Notes: generated from the sequence alone by a model not told the origin. Positions 224 through 24,768 are shown, counted from the first letter of the stretch. The stretch: DNA of 32,151 nt from Candidatus Woesearchaeota archaeon (GCA_018302205.1 JAGVZZ010000040.1:1-32151); one strand, 5' to 3'. Translations and numbers: made by a program.

Positions 224-1072
224 TTAAATTTTGTTTTCCCAAATATCCCCAGCTTTATAGAACGCTAATTTTCTTTGGTATTTGGAAGATTTAACATAAA
301 TTTGAGTAGTTCCGATATCTGAATGACCTGCATAAGACTTTATTGCAAATGAATCAACACCTTCATCAGCCATGTGTTGTAACCTTGAATGTCTAAACAT
401 ATGGGGATGTAAATCTCTAGAAAGCAATTCTTTACCATATTTTTTTAAATTGTACCAAACAGTCATTGGTTTGATTTTGAAGATTAAATCATTTGGATTT
501 GCAACAGGATTTTCAACCAAGTATTCTTTAAGCATATTTGCTGTGGCCTGTTGAAAAAATACACTTCTTGGTTTTTTGCCCTTCCCCAATAAATGTGCTT
601 CCCTTGCTGTCATATCAATATCTTTTAATTTTAAATTAGTCATTTCTGAAACTCTTGCCGCTGTGTCATACAAAAATCTGACAATTAAATTATCCCTTTT
701 ATTTTTGATATTGTCAACCAAGAAAAAAAGCTCTTTCTTTGAAAGTATGGAATTGCTCAAACGTTCTTCATCATTTATTGCGGAACTAAATTTTCTTTTG
801 AAAGTCAAAACCTCTTTTATTGTTTTTTCATCATACCCCACAAAAATTAAGTAAAGCCATAATGCGTATGATGCCAACGGATATTTTCTAGTTTCTAAAT
901 AATTCTTATGTAAAAGCTTTAGGTAATCTACTGTACCACCTGGAGAAGTATCTTGGATATACTTTGCTAAAGTCATAGCACCCGAAATTGTTTTTTCGCC
1001 AAGAGGCTTTCCATTCTTCTTAGGAAAGGTTTGAAGATATTGTTCAAATTCCAGAAGAACTTCTTTTTTCAT
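224..1072 (-). CDS. Tyrosine recombinase/integrase, XerC/D (XerA)-like
   Basis: Catalytic-domain motifs: LYDTAARVSEMTNLKLKDID (first Arg), LHPHMFRHSRLQHMADEGVD (HxxR), YAGHSDIGTTQIYVKSS (H and Tyr nucleophile). Confidence 0.92.
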   Translation of the reverse strand: MKKEVLLEFEQYLQTFPKKNGKPLGEKTISGAMTLAKYIQDTSPGGTVDYLKLLHKNYLETRKYPLASYALWLYLIFVGYDEKTIKEVLTFKRKFSSAINDEERLSNSILSKKELFFLVDNIKNKRDNLIVRFLYDTAARVSEMTNLKLKDIDMTAREAHLLGKGKKPRSVFFQQATANMLKEYLVENPVANPNDLIFKIKPMTVWYNLKKYGKELLSRDLHPHMFRHSRLQHMADEGVDSFAIKSYAGHSDIGTTQIYVKSSKYQRKLAFYKAGDIWENKI

Positions 1073-1274
1073 GAAGAATATGAGGTAAAAACAACATATA
1101 ATGATTTTGTTTTTGTAGATAGAGTGTTGTAGGGTAAGATTAAACTATATAACGTATATAATTTAATGATTTATCGACGATAAAATGAGAATATTTAATC
1201 AATGATTAAAGGTTTTGTGCAATAAAAAATTGGATTAAAAATTAAAGGTTTTAAGCATAAAAGATATAAAGAGT

Positions 1275-1853
1275 TTGGGAAAAAATATTATAATGAATAA
1301 TAAAATCATATTCCTAAGACATGCCGAAACAAAGAAAGACGAAAATGTTCTTGTGAGTAGGTGGATATTAACACTTGAAGGAAAGAGGAAAAGCCAAAGA
1401 TTGGTTGATACAGGGATATTTGATGATGTAGATATAATCATTGCATCAAAGGAAATTAAAGCCTATCAAACAGTATTACCATTAGCAAAAAGACTGAATA
1501 AAAAAATAATTAGAATTAAGGAATTGGGAGAAATTAATAGAGATCAAGGTAAAGTAATGGCAAAGGATGAATATGACAAACTTAAAATAAGAATATTCGA
1601 GGATCTTTCTCTTTCTGTAGAAGGTTGGGAAACTTGTGAACAAGCATTAAAAAGATTTGAAAGAATAATTAATAAAATCAATGGAAAATATAGTTCTAAA
1701 CGAATACTAATCGCCTCTCATGGTACAGTTATGACATTGTATTTTGCAAATAAGCAAAATAAACTAAAGGAACTAATGAGCAGATGGAAAAAATTAAAGT
1801 TCCTGGACTACGGAATCATCAAAGATAATAAAATTATCAAAGATATTAATTAA
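1275..1853 (+). CDS. Histidine phosphatase family protein (phosphoglycerate mutase-like)
   Basis: RHAET near N-terminus (IIFLRHAETKKDE) and second catalytic His in LIASHGTVMTLYF. Confidence 0.85.
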   Translation: MGKNIIMNNKIIFLRHAETKKDENVLVSRWILTLEGKRKSQRLVDTGIFDDVDIIIASKEIKAYQTVLPLAKRLNKKIIRIKELGEINRDQGKVMAKDEYDKLKIRIFEDLSLSVEGWETCEQALKRFERIINKINGKYSSKRILIASHGTVMTLYFANKQNKLKELMSRWKKLKFLDYGIIKDNKIIKDIN

Positions 1854-2449
1854 GCCTTCTTAGATTTCTTTGGGACCTCCTCAGGACATTTAACTCCTTG
1901 AGAAAAAAGAATTACTTTTTCTTTTCTAAGGTAAACGTATACAGATTTACGAACCTTTTTTTTAGCTAAGTAACCTTCTGCCTCTAAGACATTTACAAGT
2001 TGTAAAATTGCTGACCGCACTTGTTCATATTCTCTTCCAGGGTAAACTTCGGCAGCAAGTTTGGGAAGAGACGACCAACTATTTGGTTCCTCTCTTTGAA
2101 GTGCAGCTAGGCATTCACAAACTCTCATTTGGGCTTCGGGAAGTTCTTTTTCAGTACCAATTTCAGGTAATTCTTCTTCAAATTCTTCTAAATTATCACT
2201 TTTAACTCTCACTTTTGCGGGAATTTGGTGCGAAATAGCACTTTTTACGGCTAAAAGATCCTCTAAAACCTTAACTCTTGTATGTAATTCTTCAAATTTG
2301 ATGTGATGTTCATCATGTTTTGTTTTGAAATGTGAAATCCACTTTGAAACGTGGGACATATCACTTTTCATATTTTGAAAAGAACTTTTGATTGTAGATT
2401 CTAATTCTTCAACCCTTTTATCATCCTTTTTTTTGAACCAACCAAACAT
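1850..2449 (-). CDS. Coiled-coil protein with C-terminal winged-helix-like domain (putative DNA-binding protein)
   Basis: N-terminal heptad-rich MFGWFKKKDDKRVEELESTIKSSFQNMKSDMSHVSKWI...; C-terminal ACLAALQREEPNSWSSLPKLAAEVYPGREYEQVRSAILQLVNVLEAEGYLAKKKVRKSVYVYL resembles a wHTH. TATA-like TTAATAAA upstream (minus strand). Confidence 0.75.
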   Translation of the reverse strand: MFGWFKKKDDKRVEELESTIKSSFQNMKSDMSHVSKWISHFKTKHDEHHIKFEELHTRVKVLEDLLAVKSAISHQIPAKVRVKSDNLEEFEEELPEIGTEKELPEAQMRVCECLAALQREEPNSWSSLPKLAAEVYPGREYEQVRSAILQLVNVLEAEGYLAKKKVRKSVYVYLRKEKVILFSQGVKCPEEVPKKSKKA

Positions 2450-2490
2450 AATTATTTTCTAAACCTTTTTCATTTATTAATCTTTTGTTT

Positions 2491-2611
2491 GTAAAGATTA
2501 TGTTAAGATCATGTTAAGACAACGTAAAGATACATGTGTGGTTTGTTAATATTAACGTAGTCTTAACGTAATCTTTACAACGTCTTAACAATGTCTTAAC
2601 AATGTCTTAAC
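2491..2611. repeat. 11-bp iteron array, family A: dyad of 4 forward (GTWAAGAY) and 6 reverse (RTCTTAAC-type) boxes
   Basis: Forward boxes at 2491, 2502, 2513, 2524; reverse boxes at 2549, 2560, 2571, 2582, 2593, 2604; exact 11-bp step in each run. Centre holds the perfect palindrome GTTAATATTAAC (2545-2556). Confidence 0.93.
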
Positions 2612-2662
2612 AATAATTATCGACGGTATCTAAAAATATTTATAAAAAAATGAAAATAAGTG

Positions 2663-2714
2663 ATCTTAACTCAATATTAACAAGGTCTTAACAAAGTCTT
2701 AACAATATCTTAAC
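2663..2714. repeat. 11-bp iteron array, family A, third run of 5 reverse boxes
   Basis: atcttaac 2663, atattaac 2674, gtcttaac 2685, gtcttaac 2696, atcttaac 2707; exact 11-bp step. Confidence 0.92.
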
Positions 2715-2735
2715 AAAACTCGGCATGACGGATCT

Positions 2736-2751
2736 GTGTCGGAGTGTCGAA
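2736..2751. repeat. Family B box pair GTGTCGGA-GTGTCGAA
   Basis: gtgtcgga (2736-2743) followed directly by gtgtcgaa (2744-2751), 8-bp step. Confidence 0.75.
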
Positions 2752-2776
2752 ATTAGAATTTTTAGATAAAAAATCT

Positions 2777-2937
2777 AAAGTGAGAACTAATAATACGTGA
2801 GAAATGATAAAAATGAAAAAAAAGGGCTAATATATGCTCAAAAAGGTAAAAGTGAGAGTTAATAATATAATTAAATGATAAAAACTAATGAAAAAAGAGC
2901 TAAAAAAGGCTAAAAACTGCAAAAATGAGAGTTAATT
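2777..2937. repeat. Degenerate ~72-bp tandem repeat, about 2.2 copies
   Basis: aaagtgagaactaataata... / aaaagtgagagttaataata... / aaaaatgagagttaatta...; the tgaga anchor recurs at 2781, 2853 and 2926, with shared aaatgataaaaa...aatgaaaaaa...agggcta/agagcta. Confidence 0.6.
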
Positions 2938-3663
2938 AAAGGGATCAAAAAGAGATTTTTGATCATTTGATAAACTTCTAAGAGATAAAAGCTTAGACAT
3001 TAGGTTTAAAGAACGAAATTCCTTAGAAATTGAGACATAAACCATACCATTCCTATTTTTTTCTTTAACAATAGGGGTGCCTTTTCGGATTAATTCTGAG
3101 ATATAATCCCTAATTGAACTTGAGGAAAGATCTAAAAATTGAGCTAATTCTTGGTATGTAGCAGGGGCTTTATTCTGTTCTTCAAGGCTATAAATAGCTG
3201 AAAACACCTTAAATTCTCTATTTGTAAGAGAGAAAAAGGTCTTATTTAGGTCTGCTTTTAACTCCTCAAAATCAATATTATGAAGGGTGCCGGAGTGTCG
3301 AAGGGGTGTCGAAGGGGTGTCGAGGTGTCGTTGAGGTGTCGCAAGGAACCCCTTTGTTTCCTTTGGAGATACTCTGTCGGAGTTACGAACAAGGGTTTTT
3401 TCCTCTGAAATTGATCCATTTTGGTCTAATTCTTCTAATAATGGCTTATTTACCTTATCTAGAAACTCTTTCTCTATTAAATCCTCTTTTTTTTCTAATT
3501 TGTCTTCTAAATCTGATACCCTCTTGTTTAAAAGTTCTATTTTGGAATTAAGGGTTATAATAAACTCTCTGTCTGCTCTTAACTCCTTTTCTAGAAGGGC
3601 TATATGATCTTTAACTCTACGAAATGATTCCTTTATAGCCTCATCATTATGAAGAATACTCAT
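2932..3663 (-). CDS. Coiled-coil protein with C-terminal winged-helix domain (putative DNA-binding protein)
   Basis: N-terminal coiled coil (RVKDHIALLEKELRADREFIITLNSKIELLNKRVSDLEDKLEKKEDL), low-complexity linker (TPQRHLDTPSTPLRHSGT), C-terminal wHTH (LTNREFKVFSAIYSLEEQNKAPATYQELAQFLDLSSSSIRDYISELIRKG). Confidence 0.85.
   Translation of the reverse strand: MSILHNDEAIKESFRRVKDHIALLEKELRADREFIITLNSKIELLNKRVSDLEDKLEKKEDLIEKEFLDKVNKPLLEELDQNGSISEEKTLVRNSDRVSPKETKGFLATPQRHLDTPSTPLRHSGTLHNIDFEELKADLNKTFFSLTNREFKVFSAIYSLEEQNKAPATYQELAQFLDLSSSSIRDYISELIRKGTPIVKEKNRNGMVYVSISKEFRSLNLMSKLLSLRSLSNDQKSLFDPFN
3287..3341. repeat. Family B boxes (GTGYCG) inside the CDS 2932..3663
   Basis: GTGCCG 3287; GTGTCG 3295, 3306, 3317, 3325, 3336; steps 8, 11, 11, 8, 11 bp; boxes fall in all three codon phases. 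Confidence 0.9.
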
Positions 3664-3714
3664 AAAATATAAAATAGAATAAGGATTTAAAAGATTTTAT
3701 AGATAATAATATGT

Positions 3715-3780
3715 GTGTCGGAACAATGCCGGAACCCCGTCGAAAGGTTGTCGAAGGGGTGTCGGAATAGTGCCGGAACT
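3715..3780. repeat. 11-bp iteron array, family B (GTGYCGGAANN), 6 boxes
   Basis: gtgtcggaaca 3715, atgccggaacc 3726, ccgtcgaaagg 3737, ttgtcgaaggg 3748, gtgtcggaata 3759, gtgccggaact 3770; exact 11-bp step, about 52 bp upstream of the ATG at 3663. Confidence 0.93.
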
Positions 3781-3783
3781 AAT

Positions 3784-4227
3784 TTATCCTATGTAATCCC
3801 CAGCTTTTCTTTTCTTAACGGCAGTATTAACCGCAGCCTGTTGCAGTCTCGGTAATACAATATGTGGTGGAAGATTAGCTTCTTGTTCAAAGAATAAAGC
3901 TTTTACGTTACACCTAATGAATATGTTATTCAAAACATCCTTACTTATCTCTGGACTGAACTTTTTAGTCTTCTTCCATTCTTTGTAAATCTTCTCAAGC
4001 TCATCACGAGGACCTGCATATAATAAATCTCCTCCAAGAGTTATGCTACCTTGATCAGTTTCATAATCAACGTTATATTCAAAGGAGAACTTTAGAAATA
4101 GATCTTTCTTGATTTCCTCTTCTTTAAGGTTACTAATCTTAATAGAAGTTTTGACTTTTAATGGAGCCTCGATGGCTTTCTTTTTTTCAACATTTATTTT
4201 ATTGAAAGCAAATGATATTATTGGCAT
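3784..4227 (-). CDS. Conserved-looking hypothetical protein, possibly SecB-like fold (weak)
   Basis: 147 aa, beta-rich N-terminal half (KFSFEYNVDYETDQGSITLGGDLLYAG), EWKKTKKFSPEISKDVLNNIFIRCNVKALFFEQEANLPPHIVLPRLQ; the LPP.I.LPR ending is reminiscent of SecB-like proteins. Confidence 0.6.
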   Translation of the reverse strand: MPIISFAFNKINVEKKKAIEAPLKVKTSIKISNLKEEEIKKDLFLKFSFEYNVDYETDQGSITLGGDLLYAGPRDELEKIYKEWKKTKKFSPEISKDVLNNIFIRCNVKALFFEQEANLPPHIVLPRLQQAAVNTAVKKRKAGDYIG

Positions 4228-4350
4228 GACTATATGGTTTAAGTTTTTTTATATAAATGTTATGGTGTTTAATATCACATTTGGACTATAGTTTATATTA
4301 GCGTTTTAACGCCATAAGATTTTTAAAGCTTATTCACTTTAATTTAGAAT

Positions 4351-4605
4351 ATGAGTAGGTGTTCAAAAGAAAATCTTGAAAAAATCAAAGCTAATATTTT
4401 AAGGATTATTTATGATGAATCTCCAAAGGCTATAAGCGCACTTGAAATAGCTAATATTGAAGTAAGAGATAAGGAATTTGTTTTAAAATTACTCAGAGAA
4501 ATGGAGATGAGTAATTTAGTAAAAAATGTAACAAATAAGTTTTCACGAAAAAGTTACTGGGCTATGACTGATCAAACTTATAACAAATATAAAGAATTAT
4601 TGTGA
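4351..4605 (+). CDS. Small winged-helix-like protein
   Basis: 84 aa: [44 protein letters not shown]; helix pattern of a wHTH. Confidence 0.6.
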
Positions 4606-6477
4606 TTTTTTAAGAATATTATTTAATATTGATTCTTTTCCTTTCCAATCTAAAGCTTCTTTTACTACTTGTTCAATTCTAGTTACAGGTATAATTTTAA
4701 TCTTTGAAAGTCTTTCTTTTGAAATAACAATATCCTTTTCATTGGATTTAGGAATTATTACTCTTTTAATACCAGCATCAATAGCTGCTTCTACTTTTGC
4801 AGTAACACCACCGACAGCTAATACCTCTCCTCTTACAGATAATGAACCTGTCATTGCTGTATCTTGTCTAATTGGAACATTCTTCAAAGAGGATATGATA
4901 GAGGTTGCAACTGCAATTGAAGCTGAGTCACCTTCAACACCTTCTGTGGATTGAACAAACTGTATGTAAACATCATATTTTTCTCTAATATCTTCACCAA
5001 AGTATTTTAAGATTAATGCTGAAACATTCTTTACTGCTTCTTTTGCAATCTCACCAAGTTTACCTGTTGCAACGAATTCTGTTTTTTTGCCACCAGGAGT
5101 AACTTCTGATTCGATTGGAAGAACAATACCTGAGTGTGCTGAATCAGTCCCAATTACTGCTAAACCATTTACTCTACCAACTCTTGTTCCTTTGACTACA
5201 ATAACATCATACTTTTTCTTTGCTTCAATATACTTATCTGCCATCTGTTGTTCTAAAGTTTTAGATATCTTTTTTGCGTTAACAATATGTATTGGTTCAA
5301 CGAACTCTGCATTTTCTTCAACAGCCAAATCTCCAGCAGCTCTAATTAAACCCCCAAGTTCTCTTAATCTTACTGTTAGTTTACCAGAAGTAGAAGCCAT
5401 TTTTCTTGCTTCAATAACTATTGAATCAACTGCTGCTTTTGTGAAATGAGGAATTTTCCCATCCTTTTGAACTTCTCTAGCAACAAATAATGCCAATTTA
5501 TCTTGATTCTCTGGAGTGTCATCCATTGTGTTATTCATGTAAACTTCATAACCATAACCTCTAATCCTAGATCTTAAAGCTGGATGCATATGTTGGAGAG
5601 TTTCTAAGTTACCCGCAGCTACCAAAATAAAATCTGTTGGAACTGGTTCTGATCTTGTCATTGCACCACTTGATCTCTCAGATTGGCCCGTTATTGGATA
5701 TTTTTTTTCCTGTAATGCCGTTAACAGCTCTTGTTGAGAATGAGGTTGTAATGTTGAAATCTCATCAATGAATAAAACACCACCAGATGCTCTATGAACT
5801 AAACCAGCAATTAATCTCTCATGTGCAGGAGTACCTAAACCCCCAGACTGTAATGGATCATGAAGTACATCTCCTAATAATGCACCAGCATGAGCACCAG
5901 TAGCATCATGGAAAGGAGAAGTCTTAACTTCTGAATTATCAATCAATAATTTTGGTACCACTTGTGTTCCACCTAATTTTGTTATTTTTTTATTTAAGTT
6001 TAAGAAAAGCATTAATCCAATAATGAATACCACACTTGTCATCATTGAAGCTGCATAAATTATTGGTGAATCAAAAGGAAATATGTTTTTAGCATAAAAA
6101 TAGTAAGGTAATGCCGTTGCTATGATTACAAAAATAATTAATAAAATATTTTGATTTCTGAATGAACCTAAAGTTTCTAATTTTGCACGATTTACAATAA
6201 CTTTACCTTCACCTTTTGGAACTGTTTTGATTAAAGGAAAATTTTCATCAGTTGGATTAGGTAAAGACATTACATCTATTAATTTTTCTTTGGGTAATAA
6301 TTCTGCTAAACCTTGACCTAATAAAGATTTACCAGTACCAGGAGAACCTATCAATAAAACATTTCTTCTTTTGAGAGCTGCTTTCTTAATTATATTAACA
6401 GCATGTTCCTGACCAATTACTTGGTCTACAATAATTTTTGGAACTTCAATATCTTTAGTAGTTTTGAAGGTTAACAC
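4597..6477 (-). CDS. lonB: Archaeal ATP-dependent protease LonB (membrane-anchored)
   Basis: Walker [12 protein letters not shown], Walker [11 protein letters not shown] segments inserted in the AAA domain, Lon catalytic Ser in GDSAS and Lys in [10 protein letters not shown]. Confidence 0.96.
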
Positions 6478-6538
6478 GGTCTTTTTGAGAATGTTGACTA
6501 TTTATAAAACTAATGGAACAAAAAATTAATCAAAAAAA

Positions 6539-6811
6539 CTAAAGAATATCTTCTTCAGCTACTACTACAAAATCACCAACAGCAACAACTGAAGAGAAGG
6601 GGATTAACCAGTTACCTTCTTTGTCTTGTTCAATTTCTAAGTGATCTATATATGATGTAGGATCTTTTAAAATAATTTGCATTAATTCACCAGATCTTGT
6701 TTCGAAAGTCATATTACCTACAACACCGAACTTTTTACCTGATTTTGATACGACAGTTTTACCCATTAAGGATCTTGAATTCCTTTTATCATCATTTTTA
6801 GCATCTACCAT
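6539..6811 (-). CDS. PRC-barrel domain protein
   Basis: 90 aa: MGKTVVSKSGKKFGVVGNMTFETRSGELMQIIL...WLIPFSSVVAVGDFVVV. Confidence 0.8.
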   Translation of the reverse strand: MVDAKNDDKRNSRSLMGKTVVSKSGKKFGVVGNMTFETRSGELMQIILKDPTSYIDHLEIEQDKEGNWLIPFSSVVAVGDFVVVAEEDIL

Positions 6812-6878
6812 TATATATTCCTCCCAATTAATATGAATAACATCATTAGTAGGGGATTGTTTATATAATTTTCTAAAC

Positions 6879-7193
6879 TTAATTGTCTATAATATTATTG
6901 AACAATTCACCAACCTTGTCAGAAATAACATTTACTGTCTCACTTTCTTTAATGGAACTTGTATCATCAGATATACCATCAACTATTACTGCACCTGTTT
7001 TTGAGAAAGTACTGTCTTTACCAATAAGATCTCCTAAGTCAATATAAGCTGAAATTACTAATAGAGTAACAATGATAATAATTAATACAATAAAATATTT
7101 GAAAATGTTTTTGGTAAATTGGTGTTTTAATAGCTCTACTATAAGAAATAATGCCAAAATGACTGCTATTATTATCAGGAAGTTCATAATCAA
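6879..7193 (-). CDS. Small membrane protein, unknown function
   Basis: 104 aa with two N-terminal hydrophobic segments. Confidence 0.6.
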   Translation of the reverse strand: MIMNFLIIIAVILALFLIVELLKHQFTKNIFKYFIVLIIIIVTLLVISAYIDLGDLIGKDSTFSKTGAVIVDGISDDTSSIKESETVNVISDKVGELFNNIIDN

Positions 7194-7230
7194 TTAATAA
7201 TCTAATTAGTATAAATATTTTTGGGTTATA

Positions 7231-7650
7231 CCCTCCCCCTCACCATGATTTCCTATGGAACTCTAATAATAAAATATGTCATATACTTACTTTTATTTAT
7301 ATAATTTAATTTCCTATGGAAAAAAGAATAATAAAGAAGATTAATAGACGACAAAATGGGCTTGTTTAAGGTTAGTTTTTTTGAAAAAAAGTTATAATAC
7401 TCAATTGTATTGAATTCAATGGTTTTAAGCTCTATTATTATTATTATTATTATTATTTATATTATATATATTATATGTTTTTTGGTATTATATTATATTA
7501 TATTATATTATAACATATCATAATATATATATTACTTAAACTACTTTTTTCTTATTCTACTCGAAATAAAGGGGTAGATTTATAAATAAGCCAAGTCTAA
7601 ACATATCATATTCGAGTTAGAATGAGTTCCATTGGAAATAGAGGGCTGGG
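7231..7650. other. Predicted replication origin (oriC): ORB-like boxes flanking an A/T-only unwinding region
   Basis: ORB-like sites in inverted orientation: minus strand gagTTCCATAGGAAATcatggtgaGGGGGaggg (7231-7263) and plus strand gagTTCCATTGGAAATagaGGGctGGG (7624-7650); mini-box atTTCCTATGGAA (7309-7321); A/T-rich 7434-7540; immediately upstream of orc1/cdc6. Confidence 0.85.
7434..7540. repeat. A/T-only low-complexity region with (TTA)n and (TATTA)5 microrepeats, candidate duplex unwinding element
   Basis: tattattattattattattattattta... and tatta x5 (about 7487-7511); almost no G/C over ~100 bp. Confidence 0.8.
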
Positions 7651-7673
7651 TGTTTATTTCGTTGAATATTAAT

Positions 7674-7704
7674 GCTTATATAAGATTAATATTAAGAGGG
7701 AGAT
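7674..7704 (+). promoter_or_regulatory. Putative promoter/RBS of orc1/cdc6
   Basis: TATA-like gcttatataag, then agaggga shortly before the ATG at 7705. Confidence 0.5.
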
Positions 7705-8922
7705 ATGGAAAAAGAGGAAAGTAAACTTACAGGGTATTTTGAGAATTATTTAAAACAAGAACCCTTATTTATTGATAAAAAAGTTTTACAATCTAATTAT
7801 TATCCTGAAACTATTTTACATAGAGAAGAACAAATTCAAAAAGTTGCTGCTATAATGGCTCCTGCATTAAGAGGAGAGAAACCTTCTAATATGTTTATTT
7901 ATGGAAAAACAGGAAGTGGTAAGACTCTTACTATCAAACATGTTACAGAAAATATGATGGAAATAGCTAAGAGGAATGATTTAAAGGTTAAAATTTTTTA
8001 TTTGAATTGTAAGTTAAAGAGAGTTTCTGATACTGAATATAGGTTAATAGCTGAGTTAGCAAGGGGATTGAATACTGAAATTCCTGCAACAGGTTTGCCA
8101 ACTGATGAAGTTTATAAAATGTTTATTGATACTTTAGAAAAACAAAATATATTAATGATAATTATTTTGGACGAGATTGATCAGTTAGTTTCAAAGGCCG
8201 GTGATCAGATACTTTATAGTTTGACTAGAATCAATTCTGAACTTAAACAAAGTCAAATATCTATTGTTGGAATTTCAAACGATTTAATGTTTACAAATTA
8301 TTTAGATCCAAGAGTTAAAAGTTCATTATCTGAAGAAGAGTTAGTGTTTCCTCCATATAATGCTATTCAACTTAAAGCAATTTTAAACGGAAGAGCTGAG
8401 AAAGCTTTTAGGCCTTCAGCAATTGATCAGGGTGTTTTAGAAAAGTGTGCTGCATTTGCTGCAAGAGAACATGGGGATGCAAGAAGGGCTTTAGAACTTT
8501 TGAGAGTTGCTGGAGAATTAGCTGAAAGAAATGGGTTCACAAAAATTACTATTAATTCTTTAGATGAAGCTGAAGAAAAAATTGAGAAGGATAGAGTTCA
8601 TGAAATTATCACAACTCAACCAAAACAATCACAAGTTGCATTGTTAGCAATCTTTGAAACTGTTAAGGCTGCTGGGGCTAGGCCAGTATTTACTGGGGAT
8701 ATTTATGAATTGTATAAGGATTTATGTAATCGAACAAAGATTAGACCTTTAACTCAAAGAAGGATTTCTGATTTGATTGCTGAATTGGATATGTTAGGGA
8801 TTATTAATGCTAAAGTGATTAGTAAAGGAAGATATGGTAGAACAAGGCAGATTGGTTTAGGAATACCATTATCTGCTGTTCCTCAACTTGAAGGTATTTT
8901 AAGGGAATCTTTAACATTATAA
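7705..8922 (+). CDS. cdc6: Orc1/Cdc6 replication initiator
   Basis: AAA+ with Walker A GKTGSGKTLT, Walker B IIILDEIDQL, sensor 1 IVGISND, sensor 2 GDARRAL, C-terminal wHTH. Confidence 0.97.
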   Translation: MEKEESKLTGYFENYLKQEPLFIDKKVLQSNYYPETILHREEQIQKVAAIMAPALRGEKPSNMFIYGKTGSGKTLTIKHVTENMMEIAKRNDLKVKIFYLNCKLKRVSDTEYRLIAELARGLNTEIPATGLPTDEVYKMFIDTLEKQNILMIIILDEIDQLVSKAGDQILYSLTRINSELKQSQISIVGISNDLMFTNYLDPRVKSSLSEEELVFPPYNAIQLKAILNGRAEKAFRPSAIDQGVLEKCAAFAAREHGDARRALELLRVAGELAERNGFTKITINSLDEAEEKIEKDRVHEIITTQPKQSQVALLAIFETVKAAGARPVFTGDIYELYKDLCNRTKIRPLTQRRISDLIAELDMLGIINAKVISKGRYGRTRQIGLGIPLSAVPQLEGILRESLTL

Positions 8923-16742: not shown

Positions 16743-18058
16743 ATGATTGATATCAGACTTGTTAGGGAGCATCCTGAGTTGTTCTTGAAATGTTATAAGT
16801 TTATGAAAAAACCTCAGTTGATCGATTCTTTTAATGAACTTGTTGATAAAGATAAAAAATTAAGAAGTATTAAGGGGGATTTGGATCTGCTAAGGAGTTC
16901 TAGGAATACTTTATCTGAAGAGATTAACAAGTTGAAGAAGGTTGGAAAGGATATTGCTGGTGTTATTAAGAAAGTCAAGTCATTACCAGAGGATATTAAG
17001 AAGAAAGAAGAGGAATATAGTTCTGTTGAAAACAGAATGAATGAGATTCTGTTGATATTACCAAACTTGATTCATGAAAATGTGCCTTATGGTGAATCTG
17101 AGAAGAATAATGTTCAAATTAAGAAGTCTGGGAAGTTGCCTAAGTTTGATTTCCCTGTAAAGAATCATGTTGAAATCCTTGAGAATTTGGGGTTAGTTGA
17201 TTTTGAAGCTTCATCTAAAGTAATTGGAAATGGTTTTTATTATTTGAAAGGGGATTTAGGATTATTGAATCAAGCATTGATACGGTTTGCTATTGATTAT
17301 ATGGCTGAGAAGGGGTATGAGTATATTGAACCCCCATTAATGTTGAAGAAAGAAATATTGATGGCTGCTGTGGATAAGAATGTTTTTGAGAATTCTGTTT
17401 ATCAAATTGAAAATGAGAATGCTGCGTTGATTGGGACTAGTGAGTTTGCAGTCTTAGGGATGCATGTGAATGAAGTTATTGATGTTCCAAAGAAATATTT
17501 TGCATATTCTATGTGTTTCAGACAAGAAATTGGGGCGCATGGGATTAATGAGAAGGGATTATGGAGAACGCATCAGTTCAATAAAGTTGAGCAGTTTATT
17601 TTTTGTTCAAAAGAGCAATCATGGAAGTTTTATGATGAGTTGTTGAAGAATACTGAAGGGATCTTTCAAGCTTTAGAATTGCCTTACAGAGTTATTGAAA
17701 TATGTACTGGTGATTTGGCTCTGTGGAAAGCTAGGAGTGCGGATGTTGAAGTTTGGAGGCCTACATTGAATGCTTATGGTGAAGTTGCTTCATTATCTAA
17801 TTGTACTGATTATCAAGCTAGGAACTTGAATATTCGTTATGAAGGGAAAGAAGGAAGAGAAAAGCTAGGAACTTGAATATTCGTTATGAAGGGAAAGAAG
17901 GAAGAGAAGTTGTGCATACTTTGAATAATACTGCTTTGGCCACTTCACGGGCTATGGTTGCAATCGTTGAAAATAATCAGCAAAAAGATGGGACTGTTTT
18001 AATTCCGAAAGTTTTGCAGAAGTATATGGGTGGAAAGAAAGTTTTGAAGAAAGTTTAG
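16743..18058 (+). pseudogene. serS: Seryl-tRNA synthetase, disrupted by a 47-bp tandem duplication (frameshift)
   Basis: MIDIRLVREHPELF N-terminal coiled coil; motif 2 FRQEIGAHGINEKGLWRTHQFNKVEQF; motif 3 [37 protein letters not shown] lies in another frame after the duplication. Removing 47 bp leaves 1269 nt, exactly 423 in-frame codons including stop. Confidence 0.93.
17815..17908. repeat. Perfect 47-bp tandem direct duplication
   Basis: aagctaggaacttgaatattcgttatgaagggaaagaaggaagagaa at 17815-17861 and again at 17862-17908. Confidence 0.98.
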
Positions 18059-20400: not shown

Positions 20401-20636
20401 TTATACTGGTAATGGTGATGATGCATTTACTCCTGATGTTGTAATTTCTACTGGTGGAGATAGTGGTGGTGATGCTTCCTCTAGTTCTTCTGACGTTTTA
20501 GCTCCCGAGGTTACAATAGATGATCCAGATGGAGAGCCAACGAATGATATAGCTCCTTAATTATTTTTTATTTTAATATTGTATATATGATTAATTTCCC
20601 TAAATTCTTTTAAATGAAATATTGATTCTTTTTGAG

Positions 20637-23033
20637 ATGGATCCTGAAAATTTAACGCCTGCTATGAGGCAGTTTGCTGAATTGAAGAAAGAGTATGGTG
20701 ATTGTATAATTATGTTTAGGATGGGTGATTTTTATGAAATGTTTTATGAGGATGCAGAAATCGCTGCGAGAGAATTAGAGATAACATTAACCTCTAGAGG
20801 GAAAGGTGAGAAGAAAGCACCATTAGCTGGAATTCCTCATCATGCTTTAGATCCATATTTGATTAGGTTTGTAAAAAAAGGTTATAAGGTTGCGATTTGC
20901 GAGCAACTTGAGGATCCGAAGAAAGCTAAAGGGTTGGTTAAGCGGGGGATTGTTAGAATTGTTACACCCGGAACTTTGTATGAGCAAGATTCTAAATCTA
21001 ATTCTTATATTTTAAGTTTGTTTGCGTATGGGGACAAATATTATTCTGCAATTTGTGATTTGTCTACGGGAGAGTTTTTTGTTTCTGAGGGGATTGATTT
21101 TGGGATTGCTGATGAGTGTTTAATCCCTGAAAGTTTGTTTGTGAATAAAGAGTTGATTGAACAGTTGAAATCTAGAGGGTTGTTTATTTCTAAACTTGAA
21201 GATAAATATTTTTCTTTTGAGGTTTCATATAAAATTTTGATTGATCATTTTAATTTATTATCCTTAGAAGGGTTTGGATTGTATAGGGATGATATGAGAA
21301 TACGTGCTGCTGGGGCTCTGATGTATTATCTGAAAGATATGCAGATGAATTCTGTTTCGCATATAAAAAAGATTTCTTTGAGAGAGAATCATGAGTATAT
21401 GGTTTTGGATTCTGTGTCTTTGCGTAACCTAGAAATTTTTGAAAATTTAAGAGATGGGAGCTTGCGTGGAAGTTTGGTTTCAGTATTGGATAAAACTCAG
21501 ACGGCGATGGGATCAAGATTATTAAGGCGGTGGTTGAGTGAGCCCCTGTATAATGTTGAAGAGATTAATTATCGTTTAAGTAAAGTTGAATATCTGACAA
21601 AGAATTTAATGTTGAGAGAGAATCTTAAAAAAATTCTAAAAGGTATTGCGGATATTGAAAGATTGATTGCGCGTTCGAATTTGAATAAAATTAATGCTAG
21701 AGATTTACTAGCGTTGAAGAATTCATTGTTGCGTATTAAGCAAATACAACTGGATGATTTTGGGGAATTAAGTAAGTTTGAGGGGTTTGATGATTTAATT
21801 ATAATTTTAGAGAACGCGATTCGTGAAGATGCGTCTGCGATGTTGAAAGACGGGGGGATGATTAAATGGAATTTTGATCCGATGCTTAAGGATCTGCATG
21901 AGATTAGGACTAATAGTAAACATTATCTGTCGTCTTTGGAAGCTAAAGAACGGGAGAAGAGTGGGATTAGAAATCTGCGTATTGGTTATAATAAAGTATT
22001 TGGATATTATTTTGAAGTGTCCGCGGGGAATCTAAGTGCTGTGCCTGATTATTTTATCCGAAAACAAACCTTAGCGAATTGTGAGAGGTATATTACACAA
22101 GAGTTGAAAGAAGAAGAAGAGAAGATATTGACTGCACAAGAGAAGATTGGAGAATTAGAGTATGATCTATTCTTGAAAGTTTTGGATGAAGTAAAAATTT
22201 ATACTGAAAAAATTCAAGAGGTTGCATTGAAGGTTGCACAGATTGATGTATTATGTTCGTTTGCACAAGTTAGTGAAGAAAATAATTATGTTAAGCCTTT
22301 AGTTGATGATTCAAATGTATTACAAATTTTTGAAGGAAGGCATCCTGTTGTTGAGTTGAATGAAGATTTTATTCCGAATGATACTTTGTTTAATGAGTTT
22401 GAGATTATGATTATTACTGGGCCTAATTTTGCTGGAAAAAGTTGTTATATGAAACAAGTTGCGTTGATTGCTATAATGGCTCAAGTTGGATGTTTTGTTC
22501 CTGCAAAAGATGCAAGAATTGGAGTTGTGGATAGGGTGTTTACTAGAATTGGTGCATATGATGATTTGATCTCAGGGCAAAGTACGTTTATGGTAGAGAT
22601 GAATGAGACTGCAAATATTTTGAATAATGCTACTTCTCGGAGTTTGATATTATTAGATGAGATTGGGCGTGGAACTAGTACGTATGATGGGGTGTCTATT
22701 GCATGGGCGGTTGTTGAGCATATTTATAATCATGTTAAAGCGAAGACTTTGTTTGCGACACATTACCATGTATTGAATAAGTTATCTGCGACTTTTTCTA
22801 AAATCAAAAATTATAACATTGCTGTGAAAGAAACGGGTGATGAGATTATTTTTTTGCGTAAATTGTTAGAGGGTGGGACGGATAAGAGTTTTGGGGTGTA
22901 TGTAGCAAAGCTTGCTGGGTTGCCTGAATCTGTGATTAACAGGGCTAGGGAAGTGCAAAGTGAGTTAGAAGATAAAGATAAATTAGACCGAATAAATGCT
23001 AAAAAATTAGAAGAGCAGAAGAGATTGTTTTAA
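20637..23033 (+). CDS. mutS: DNA mismatch repair protein MutS (MutS1, bacterial type)
   Basis: Mismatch-reading FxE-type motif IIMFRMGDFYEMFYEDA; Walker A TGPNFAGKSCYMKQ; Walker B LILLDEIGRGTSTYDG; ATG at 20637. Confidence 0.97.
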   Translation: MDPENLTPAMRQFAELKKEYGDCIIMFRMGDFYEMFYEDAEIAARELEITLTSRGKGEKKAPLAGIPHHALDPYLIRFVKKGYKVAICEQLEDPKKAKGLVKRGIVRIVTPGTLYEQDSKSNSYILSLFAYGDKYYSAICDLSTGEFFVSEGIDFGIADECLIPESLFVNKELIEQLKSRGLFISKLEDKYFSFEVSYKILIDHFNLLSLEGFGLYRDDMRIRAAGALMYYLKDMQMNSVSHIKKISLRENHEYMVLDSVSLRNLEIFENLRDGSLRGSLVSVLDKTQTAMGSRLLRRWLSEPLYNVEEINYRLSKVEYLTKNLMLRENLKKILKGIADIERLIARSNLNKINARDLLALKNSLLRIKQIQLDDFGELSKFEGFDDLIIILENAIREDASAMLKDGGMIKWNFDPMLKDLHEIRTNSKHYLSSLEAKEREKSGIRNLRIGYNKVFGYYFEVSAGNLSAVPDYFIRKQTLANCERYITQELKEEEEKILTAQEKIGELEYDLFLKVLDEVKIYTEKIQEVALKVAQIDVLCSFAQVSEENNYVKPLVDDSNVLQIFEGRHPVVELNEDFIPNDTLFNEFEIMIITGPNFAGKSCYMKQVALIAIMAQVGCFVPAKDARIGVVDRVFTRIGAYDDLISGQSTFMVEMNETANILNNATSRSLILLDEIGRGTSTYDGVSIAWAVVEHIYNHVKAKTLFATHYHVLNKLSATFSKIKNYNIAVKETGDEIIFLRKLLEGGTDKSFGVYVAKLAGLPESVINRAREVQSELEDKDKLDRINAKKLEEQKRLF

Positions 23034-23100
23034 GTTACTATTTTAATTATTCTTTTAGAGTTGATATATTCTTTTAAAGCATATTTTGATACAGATTGGT

Positions 23101-24768
23101 ATGATTAATATTTTGGATCAGAAGCTTGTTAATCGGATTGCTGCCGGAGAGGTAATTGAGAGACCTATTAATGTAGTTAAGGAGTTAGTTGAAAATGCGA
23201 TTGATGCTAGTGCGAAGCATATTACTGTTGAGGTTACTGATCATTTGATTAGTGTTTCTGATGATGGGGACGGGATGTCCAAAGAGGATCTTGAGAAATG
23301 TGTTTTGAGGCATGCAACAAGTAAAATTTTAAATTATGATGATTTAGAAACTGTGAATAGTTTTGGGTTCAGAGGTGAAGCACTTTCTAGTATTGCTGCT
23401 GTTTCGCAGATGACAATTACAACTAAGTTCAAAGGTGATATTGAAGGTTATGAATTGCAAATTAATGGTGGAATGATAATTTCATTGAAACCTATAGCTT
23501 GTTCCCAAGGGACTTCTGTTGAGATTAGGGATTTATTTTTTAATACACCTGTAAGAAAGAAATTTTTGGATATTAATGAGAATGAGAGGATTGTTGAATT
23601 TTTAGAAAAGTTCGCATTAGGGACTAATGTTTCAATTCGTTTAAAGTTTAAGGATTGGGTAGTGTTGGATGTTTATGCACAAGATTTGATGGATAGGATT
23701 GCACAAGTCTATGGAATTGAGTTACCTAAAAATCTGGTTAAGATTGAGTTTGCTAATGAGGATGTTAAAATTTCGGGTTATGTTTCTAAGCCTTCGTTAG
23801 TTAGGAAAGATAAGAGTATGCAGGCGTTGTTTGTTAATGGGCGGTTAGTTGAGAATGAAGAGATAAGTTTAGGTTTATACGAAGCATACAAGAGTCTGTT
23901 GTTTGTGAATAAGCATCCAATTGTTGCATTGAATTTGGAGGTACAAGACGTTGATGTGAATGTGCATCCAACAAAGAAGATTGTTAAGTTTACTGATTCA
24001 ACAAAAATAACTAAAGGGATATTCGAGGCTATTCGAGGTGCGTTTAGAGAAGAAAGGTTAGAATTCCAAGTGCAAGATAATGTTTTGGTGAGGGAGTTTT
24101 TACCGCGTGAGATTAGAACTTATCCTAAAGAAGAGAATAAAAGGTTTGTTAGAGAAATACAAAAGAGTTTAGGATCACAAAAAGTTGATGATAAAAGGTA
24201 TAATCATTTTCCTGAAATAAAGATTTTAGGGCAAGTTGCTAAGACTTTTTTCTTGGCTGAGACAGATGAAGGGTTGTTAATAATTGATCAGCATGTTGTT
24301 GAAGAGAGAATTAATTATGAGAAGTTTATGAAACAGTATATGGGGAATAATGTTGCTGTGCAGGATTTGTTGATGCCCGAAGTATTAGAATTTAAAGCTA
24401 GTGAAGCTATGGCTTTGAAAAGGAATCTGGAGAAGTTGAAAGAGTATGGGTTCCATGTTGATGAGTTTGGTGAGAATACTTTTAGATTATTGAAAGTGCC
24501 AGTTATATTTAGTAAAGTAAAAGGTTCTGAACTTTTGAAAGAGTTGATGGTTGATTTTAAGGATACTGAGAGAGAGGATATTATTACTAGGATGTCTTGT
24601 AAGAAGTCTATCAAAGCTGGGGATACTGTTACTAATTTTGAGATGATGAATTTGATTAAAGAGTTAGATAAGTGTGATTATCCGTTTACTTGTCCACATG
24701 GACGACCAACAATAGTTAAGTTTTCATTATCTGATTTAGAGAAATTGTTTAGAAGGAAGGGGTTCTAG
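23101..24768 (+). CDS. mutL: DNA mismatch repair protein MutL with endonuclease motif
   Basis: RIAAGEVIERP, NAIDAS, DDGDGM, GFRGEAL; C-terminal DQHVVEERINYE matches DQHA(x)2E(x)4E-type metal site and CPHGRP; ATG at 23101. Confidence 0.97.
   Translation: MINILDQKLVNRIAAGEVIERPINVVKELVENAIDASAKHITVEVTDHLISVSDDGDGMSKEDLEKCVLRHATSKILNYDDLETVNSFGFRGEALSSIAAVSQMTITTKFKGDIEGYELQINGGMIISLKPIACSQGTSVEIRDLFFNTPVRKKFLDINENERIVEFLEKFALGTNVSIRLKFKDWVVLDVYAQDLMDRIAQVYGIELPKNLVKIEFANEDVKISGYVSKPSLVRKDKSMQALFVNGRLVENEEISLGLYEAYKSLLFVNKHPIVALNLEVQDVDVNVHPTKKIVKFTDSTKITKGIFEAIRGAFREERLEFQVQDNVLVREFLPREIRTYPKEENKRFVREIQKSLGSQKVDDKRYNHFPEIKILGQVAKTFFLAETDEGLLIIDQHVVEERINYEKFMKQYMGNNVAVQDLLMPEVLEFKASEAMALKRNLEKLKEYGFHVDEFGENTFRLLKVPVIFSKVKGSELLKELMVDFKDTEREDIITRMSCKKSIKAGDTVTNFEMMNLIKELDKCDYPFTCPHGRPTIVKFSLSDLEKLFRRKGF

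Follow-up and report, generated by a model that had tools for sequence, protein, structure and literature searches.

The adjacent genes A and B, which encode paralogous proteins of a coiled-coil/winged helix-turn-helix (wHTH) family, are supported by the evidence below as a conserved, origin-linked system and not a chance pair, and gene B carries within its reading frame an origin recognition box (ORB) beside an array of 11-bp repeats. The pair is best explained as a system for chromosome maintenance that has been passed on vertically within a DPANN (Pacearchaeota-related) class. We see about an even chance that it is an Orc1/Cdc6-coupled nucleoprotein locus, which controls replication initiation or couples replication to chromosome maintenance or origin organisation. 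The window analysed is a complete contig of 32,151 bases from an archaeal MAG (645 kb, 71% complete), and its features are collected in Table 1.

Table 1. Features of the A-B locus and its surroundings (positions in the window)
Feature	Position	Strand	Remarks
XerA-like tyrosine recombinase	224..1072	-	belongs to conserved neighbourhood
Gene A	1850..2449	-	199 aa; coiled-coil/wHTH family protein, paralog of B
A-type array, part 1	2491..2611	both	GTTAAGACA-like sites, 11 bp apart; four + sites at 2491-2532, six - sites at 2548-2611
A-type array, part 2	2662..2714	-	five sites, 11 bp apart
Isolated pair of B-type sites	2736..2752	-	beside the A array
AAAGTGAG element, copy 1	2777..2788	+	
AAAGTGAGAGTT element, copy 2 (exact)	2849..2860	+	
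AAAATGAGAGTT element, copy 3	2922..2933	+	abuts B stop codon
Gene B	2932..3663	-	243 aa; long helix, disordered linker, wHTH
Intragenic B-type array	3287..3344	-	five sites; codes for disordered linker
ORB in gene B (ATCTCCAAAGGAAACAAAGGGGT)	3348..3370	-	sense strand of B; abuts intragenic array
B-promoter array	3715..3778	-	six B-type sites (TTCCGACAC/TTTCGACAA), 11-bp spacing
Conventional oriC	7240..7647		weaker ORBs at 7240 (-), 7553 (+) and 7625 (+) flank AT-rich repeat
AT-rich repeat of conventional oriC	7433-7534		
Orc1/Cdc6 initiator gene	7705..8922	+	

The initial annotation had described two co-oriented genes next to a Xer-type recombinase, and all three are found as described. It had further assigned a coiled coil and a wHTH to both proteins, which holds for B, whereas for A the wHTH is seen at the family level only. 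The C-terminal wHTH of B matches HTH_11 above the cut-off (E 4.5e-07), and in a single-sequence AlphaFold2 model residues 4-82 form one long helix, residues 83-130 a linker without order and residues 132-229 the wHTH (pLDDT ~85). The structure model of A, built from two sequences, is poor (pLDDT 45). Profile-profile comparison unites A and B as full-length paralogs (probability 97.9%, E 4e-13); further paralogous copies of A were considered and rejected for its own genome, the 645-kb, 71%-complete MAG. Simple regulators of the MarR/Lrs14 type are short proteins that dimerize via helices flanking the wHTH. The wHTH of B is closest to such MarR-like regulators and folds, and its 80-residue helix and linker are additions to the MarR-like unit. 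In 10 of 55 members it also bears a weak resemblance to DnaD_N, and the A profile shows a weak match (E 0.003, ~42 residues of the wing) to AspA of the pNOB8 partition system. Searches of Pfam, NCBIfam and PHROGs recovered no significant family match for A of the window and generic HTH families only for B, and the matches in PHROGs and PADLOC were all of a generic HTH or coiled-coil kind. Neither protein is covered over its full length by a solved structure, and Rfam found no RNA in window 1000-8000.

When the whole window was scanned without bias for an 11-bp period, the A promoter ranked highest (z 9.1, start 2548). Second came a segment within gene B (z 7.9, start 3282), and third the B promoter (z 6.8, start 3714). 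Thus, the separate arrays originally proposed upstream of A and of B are both real; the intragenic B array, the ORB, the isolated pair of B-type sites and the three AAAGTGAG elements are additions to that account. The promoter arrays sit 30-200 bp 5' of the start codons. A scan of the window for A-type and B-type sites revealed no cluster at the cdc6-side origin and no dispersed sites outside the locus, so that any effect at that origin would have to act at a distance. Among relatives the array sequence varies strongly between genera (TTCGACA, AATCATCAAC, TTCATTCA, GCACT and others), with a period of 10, 11 or 12. The B-promoter and intragenic arrays of the same genome share a mean of 11.9 7-mers, as against 2.7 across genomes (permutation maximum 4.4), and the A-promoter array shares 1.2 with the B intragenic array. 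Such a genome-specific motif common to both B arrays is what would be expected if B reads both. Arrays recur in relatives, where a lack of conservation would have spoken against the system; loci with A and B in convergent orientation have no array at the A promoter. The B-promoter array is weak in about half of the genomes, and in the second order studied the intragenic array is kept with promoter arrays weak or absent. In two genomes the entire module of ORB and array is duplicated in the B promoter.

The ORB is the binding site of the Orc1/Cdc6 initiator. In the sense of B, AGTTCCAYAGGAAATRAAGGGGT directly precedes the intragenic array and fits the published common archaeal motif TCCA[CG]T[TG]GAAA[TC][GA]AAGGGGT of Ori-Finder 2, including the G-string (PMC4164010). 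Scoring relied on this published motif, which is independent of the present loci (PMC4164010). With up to four mismatches, a sense-strand ORB is present in B in all 61 loci of the first order (53 with up to three) and an antisense one in 0/61; a shuffled control of the same size (~1 Mb) gave a single match. All 20 loci of the second order likewise carry a sense-strand ORB in B under this threshold. An ORB is defined by the core TCCA-N2-GGAAAC/T plus a G-string, and scoring with the published motif places the elements of 61/61 and 20/20 loci in this class. A scan of genome contigs added one true relative that has the ORB in B, the MAG Ca. Pacearchaeota archaeon RBG_13_36_9; another candidate from that scan (L003) proved spurious. 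Genome-wide searches of 104 genomes with the ORB pattern returned one to three matches for most genomes. By our count, ~62 of 67 exact matches lie in B and three more just upstream of it, and the B-borne ORB is usually the best in its genome.

The constraint on this element acts on the DNA. Depending on the locus, translation runs through the ORB in one of two frames (46 versus 8 loci), and in the peptide motif S-S-x-G-N-x-G-V, which was found by protein sequence, the rare codons TCC and GGG are each used in 27/27 cases against backgrounds of 7% and 15%, respectively. Two reading frames and rare codons are the basis for this statement and, together with the independent published motif and its shuffled control, lead us to reject a chance or protein-driven motif. 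In the model of B from the window, the DNA of the ORB and array codes for the disordered linker, which joins the coiled coil to the wHTH. Binding of Orc1/Cdc6 to the intragenic ORB is a prediction from sequence.

The conventional origin lies elsewhere. In the window the cumulative GC skew has its minimum near 7.0 kb, and in loci with both genes the averaged GC-skew switch and the A+T peak fall at the cdc6 promoter and not at B. The ORBs of the cdc6 promoter are weaker and opposed, and the origin defined there by GC skew is 4-8 kb from the B-borne ORB. For the window itself, the distance of 4-5 kb given in the initial annotation was of the right order, with a wider range of 3.5-5 kb to the conventional origin (~7.2-7.7 kb). 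A GC-skew switch and an AT-rich unwinding element were both sought at B; neither is found there, and both are at the cdc6 promoter. The GC skew thus rejects the B locus as the main origin, and the B-borne ORB is an accessory site.

Both genes are widely retained. Within the family, 16 of 18 genomes have A; for B, the count in the order is 86 of 104 genomes (44 of the 47 high-quality ones), mostly in single copy. Nearly all loci have A next to B, either in tandem or convergent. Hence the genes are not sporadic or unlinked to oriC, a circumstance that would have spoken against the system. The phylogenetic profile places the pair near cdc6 across two orders, with B-profile matches class-wide in 269 of 385 genomes. 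The neighbourhood kept throughout the order reads XerA-A-B-C-(ArgRS)-D-LonB-PRC-Cdc6-DP1-DP2, where D is a small wHTH-like protein and C an uncharacterised one. XerA is found less than 2 kb from A in 29 of the 42 first-order loci in which it was found. The second order shows the same arrangement, with A and B convergent and B ~2-7 kb from Cdc6. A third, distant lineage has A and B as a tandem operon, mostly with an 11-bp array upstream of A (of the ATTCCCATAAC type) and with XerA nearby; it lacks the ORB and a neighbouring Cdc6, which implies that coupling to Orc1/Cdc6 was not the ancestral function. At one distant locus (L195, 8300-9037) the gene beside B resembles a serine recombinase and no XerA match is nearby, a hint that the system may be functionally connected with site-specific recombination.

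Natural losses provide further information. Family f11 is represented by four genomes, one of them a two-contig assembly at 97% completeness. All four lack Cdc6 and B as well as the near-perfect ORB, while A is kept in unchanged synteny; the search for B there returned one weak match (6e-7, in G071). This amounts to a clade-wide natural experiment, in which Cdc6, its box and B were lost together and A stayed. It is nevertheless one evolutionary event, and deletion of linked genes could contribute to it, B and cdc6 being only kilobases apart. Genome G006 has a deletion of B and retains Cdc6 and A, indicating that B is dispensable there. On the present genomes, then, B tracks Cdc6 in one clade yet can be lost alone. 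In f11 (L187-L190) A-type repeats (CGTTCAATCGTTCATGAAC) lie inside the A gene and not upstream of it.

A third, oriented element is typified by AAAGTGAG. Elements of this type are ~20-fold enriched in the A-B region and biased in orientation (85 versus 10; 56 versus 2 in the second order), and by our count ~31 of 38 exact AAAGTGAGAGTT matches, genome-wide in 50 genomes, fall within the locus. Distances between neighbours (n 99) peak at 52, 63, 73, 94, 104, 115 and 125. They fit a period of 10.5 bp with R 0.49, a value that not one of 2000 jittered controls reached; the non-coding subset gives R 0.50. The analytical p-value of 4e-11 is an overstatement because related genomes are not independent; the many different multiples of 10.5 bp nonetheless speak for genuine helical phasing. 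A weaker replicate comes from the second order, where one 95-bp spacing dominates. Since the element persists in f11, which has neither B nor Cdc6, neither protein is required for it. In the window, positions 2802-2936 show a 73-bp period with 1.9 copies, which holds elements 2 and 3 at a distance of seven helical turns.

We infer from these elements a scheme in which A and B would each bind their own helically phased array through the wHTH and multimerise through the coiled coil. In the two ORB-bearing orders the locus would have been wired into replication: Orc1/Cdc6 may dock on the ORB in gene B, directly beside the intragenic array, so that the initiator and B could assemble jointly, or compete, on a nucleoprotein complex close to the origin, which may also bridge to the B-promoter array. 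Synthesis of B and the state of the origin region would thereby be made dependent on Orc1/Cdc6, and the predicted output is an element controlling replication initiation, a coupler of initiation to origin organisation, or both. A more specific proposal, to which we give somewhat less than an even chance, is that Orc1/Cdc6 and a lineage-specific coiled-coil/wHTH protein co-assemble, at a locus separate from oriC, on that protein's own coding DNA together with a helically phased third element. Such a locus would combine a site of initiator regulation with a centromere, unlike known archaeal or bacterial systems. The initial annotation had offered segregation or origin tethering and replication control side by side; the system it proposed is supported as conserved and origin-linked, and the decisive addition, the Orc1/Cdc6 box within B, shifts the balance to replication control or to a coupling of replication with segregation.

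A centromere-like role, with A and B forming partition complexes on the arrays for segregation or origin tethering and the ORB reporting origin proximity or coupling segregation to initiation, is suggested by the 11-bp (10-12) arrays with cognate coiled-coil/wHTH proteins, by the proximity of XerA in most first-order loci and in the third lineage, where one locus has a serine recombinase near the A-B operon, by the weak match of A to AspA and by the presence of SMC in 49 of 50 genomes. We consider it unlikely, if worth serious weight, because no NTPase is encoded beside the pair, dispersed sites are lacking in the window outside the locus, and the loss of B tracks that of Cdc6 in f11. Reading of the ORFs recognised no ParM or TubZ gene in the window or the conserved neighbourhood, in line with the statement of the initial annotation on such NTPases. 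A Walker ATPase partner of the ParA/SegA kind is likewise not adjacent, and six B-bearing genomes that are at least 90% complete have no AAA_31 match, which rejects a simple ParA-dependent system.

The idea that A and B are paralogous autoregulated transcription factors, with the arrays as operators and Orc1/Cdc6 in B as a roadblock regulating B, draws on the position of the arrays relative to the start codons and on the affinity of the wHTH to MarR-like regulators. It appears quite improbable, as it explains neither the oriented third element with its 10.5-bp phasing, nor the fact that the pair is kept at the origin almost everywhere and has no further predicted targets, nor an intragenic array that the second order keeps where promoter arrays are weak or absent. 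Its simplest form, the two autorepressors of the initial annotation, similarly leaves the ORB, the frame-independent conservation and the phased element unaccounted for. That the ORB and array in gene B constitute a second active replication origin is very doubtful: most genomes have their best ORB there, beside iteron-like arrays and the A+T-rich A-B intergenic region, and the wHTH of B has its faint likeness to DnaD_N, but the ORB is single where the cdc6 promoter has an opposed pair, and it is at that promoter that the averaged skew switches and A+T peaks. Iterons and a recombinase also recall plasmid maintenance loci, yet the remnant of a plasmid or virus that integrated together with a replication module of its own is scarcely credible as a reading of a locus that is mostly single copy, syntenic with core genes across the order, present class-wide and devoid of any strong phage-family match. 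The core chromosomal neighbourhood (LonB, ArgRS, Cdc6, DP1, DP2) rejects an integrated plasmid, the circumstance that would have undermined the original proposal.

In the ParR/parC and TubR/tubC systems, iterons of the 11-bp type are bound by an adjacently encoded small DNA-binding protein. A-B resembles them in having such iterons beside the genes of small, predicted DNA-binding proteins, but is chromosomal, lacks the ParM or TubZ NTPase, comprises two paralogs with separate arrays, and has an embedded ORB. In bacteria, parS sites occur inside parB genes and DnaA-box clusters occur outside oriC. These too are sites in or near the gene of their binder and close to the origin; they involve other protein families, however, and in the present locus a box for one protein stands side by side with an array for another within a single reading frame. 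Compared with AspA of pNOB8, A has no ParA/ParB partner beside it and possesses a long N-terminal helix and a site array. SegB of the Sulfolobales SegAB system acts on sites scattered over the chromosome and works with the ATPase SegA (PMC12284271). The likeness lies in a chromosomal protein whose DNA sites, predicted ones in A-B, are mostly intragenic and cluster around the locus itself (PMC12284271); the A-B locus differs in having no adjacent SegA-like gene and no scattered sites within the window. UBP of Sulfolobus oriC1 is a saddle-shaped protein of 111 aa with hundreds of genomic sites, and ucm is a short (11-bp) element between ORBs inside oriC (PMC12141716). Both cases combine a sequence-specific accessory DNA-binding protein, predicted in that of B, with a short ORB-associated element (PMC12141716), but B belongs to a coiled-coil/wHTH family and has its arrays within the locus that encodes it, and the published description of the UBP fold differs. 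The B element resembles the ORBs of archaeal oriC in fitting the published motif with its G-string (PMC4164010); those ORBs are opposed and at the cdc6 promoter, whereas that of B is single, in sense orientation, intragenic and kilobases from the GC-skew switch.

As A-B lacks defining features of ParMR, TubZR, ParABS/SegAB and an origin proper, we cautiously regard A-B as new as a system, each of its component motifs having precedents; a limited literature search found no published description of the pair or of an ORB inside a conserved gene. To our knowledge, initiation control and chromosome segregation are essentially unstudied in DPANN. The locus offers a conserved, small and testable object with defined cis elements and two proteins, in which a replication-initiator box has been kept inside a reading frame across two orders.

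Several observations concern other genes of the window and its relatives. In the relatives L070, L081, L082, L093, L095, L108 and L189, LonB is divided between two ORFs that lie 0.7-3 kb apart, and in L189 the sequence looks like an intein end. In G012 and G058 (L074, 17206-19527) the Cdc6 open frames are ~780 aa long as against 410, suggesting an intein or a fusion. Members of genus g8 (L078, L105, L106 and L107) have a shorter Cdc6-like gene beside A and XerA, which in L106 is additional to the origin copy. A perfect 47-bp tandem duplication at 17815-17908 of the window shifts the frame of the seryl-tRNA synthetase ORF and is either a real lesion or an assembly artefact. Finally, the stretch 20622-24768 contains adjacent MutS- and MutL-like ORFs, named from their sequence alone.
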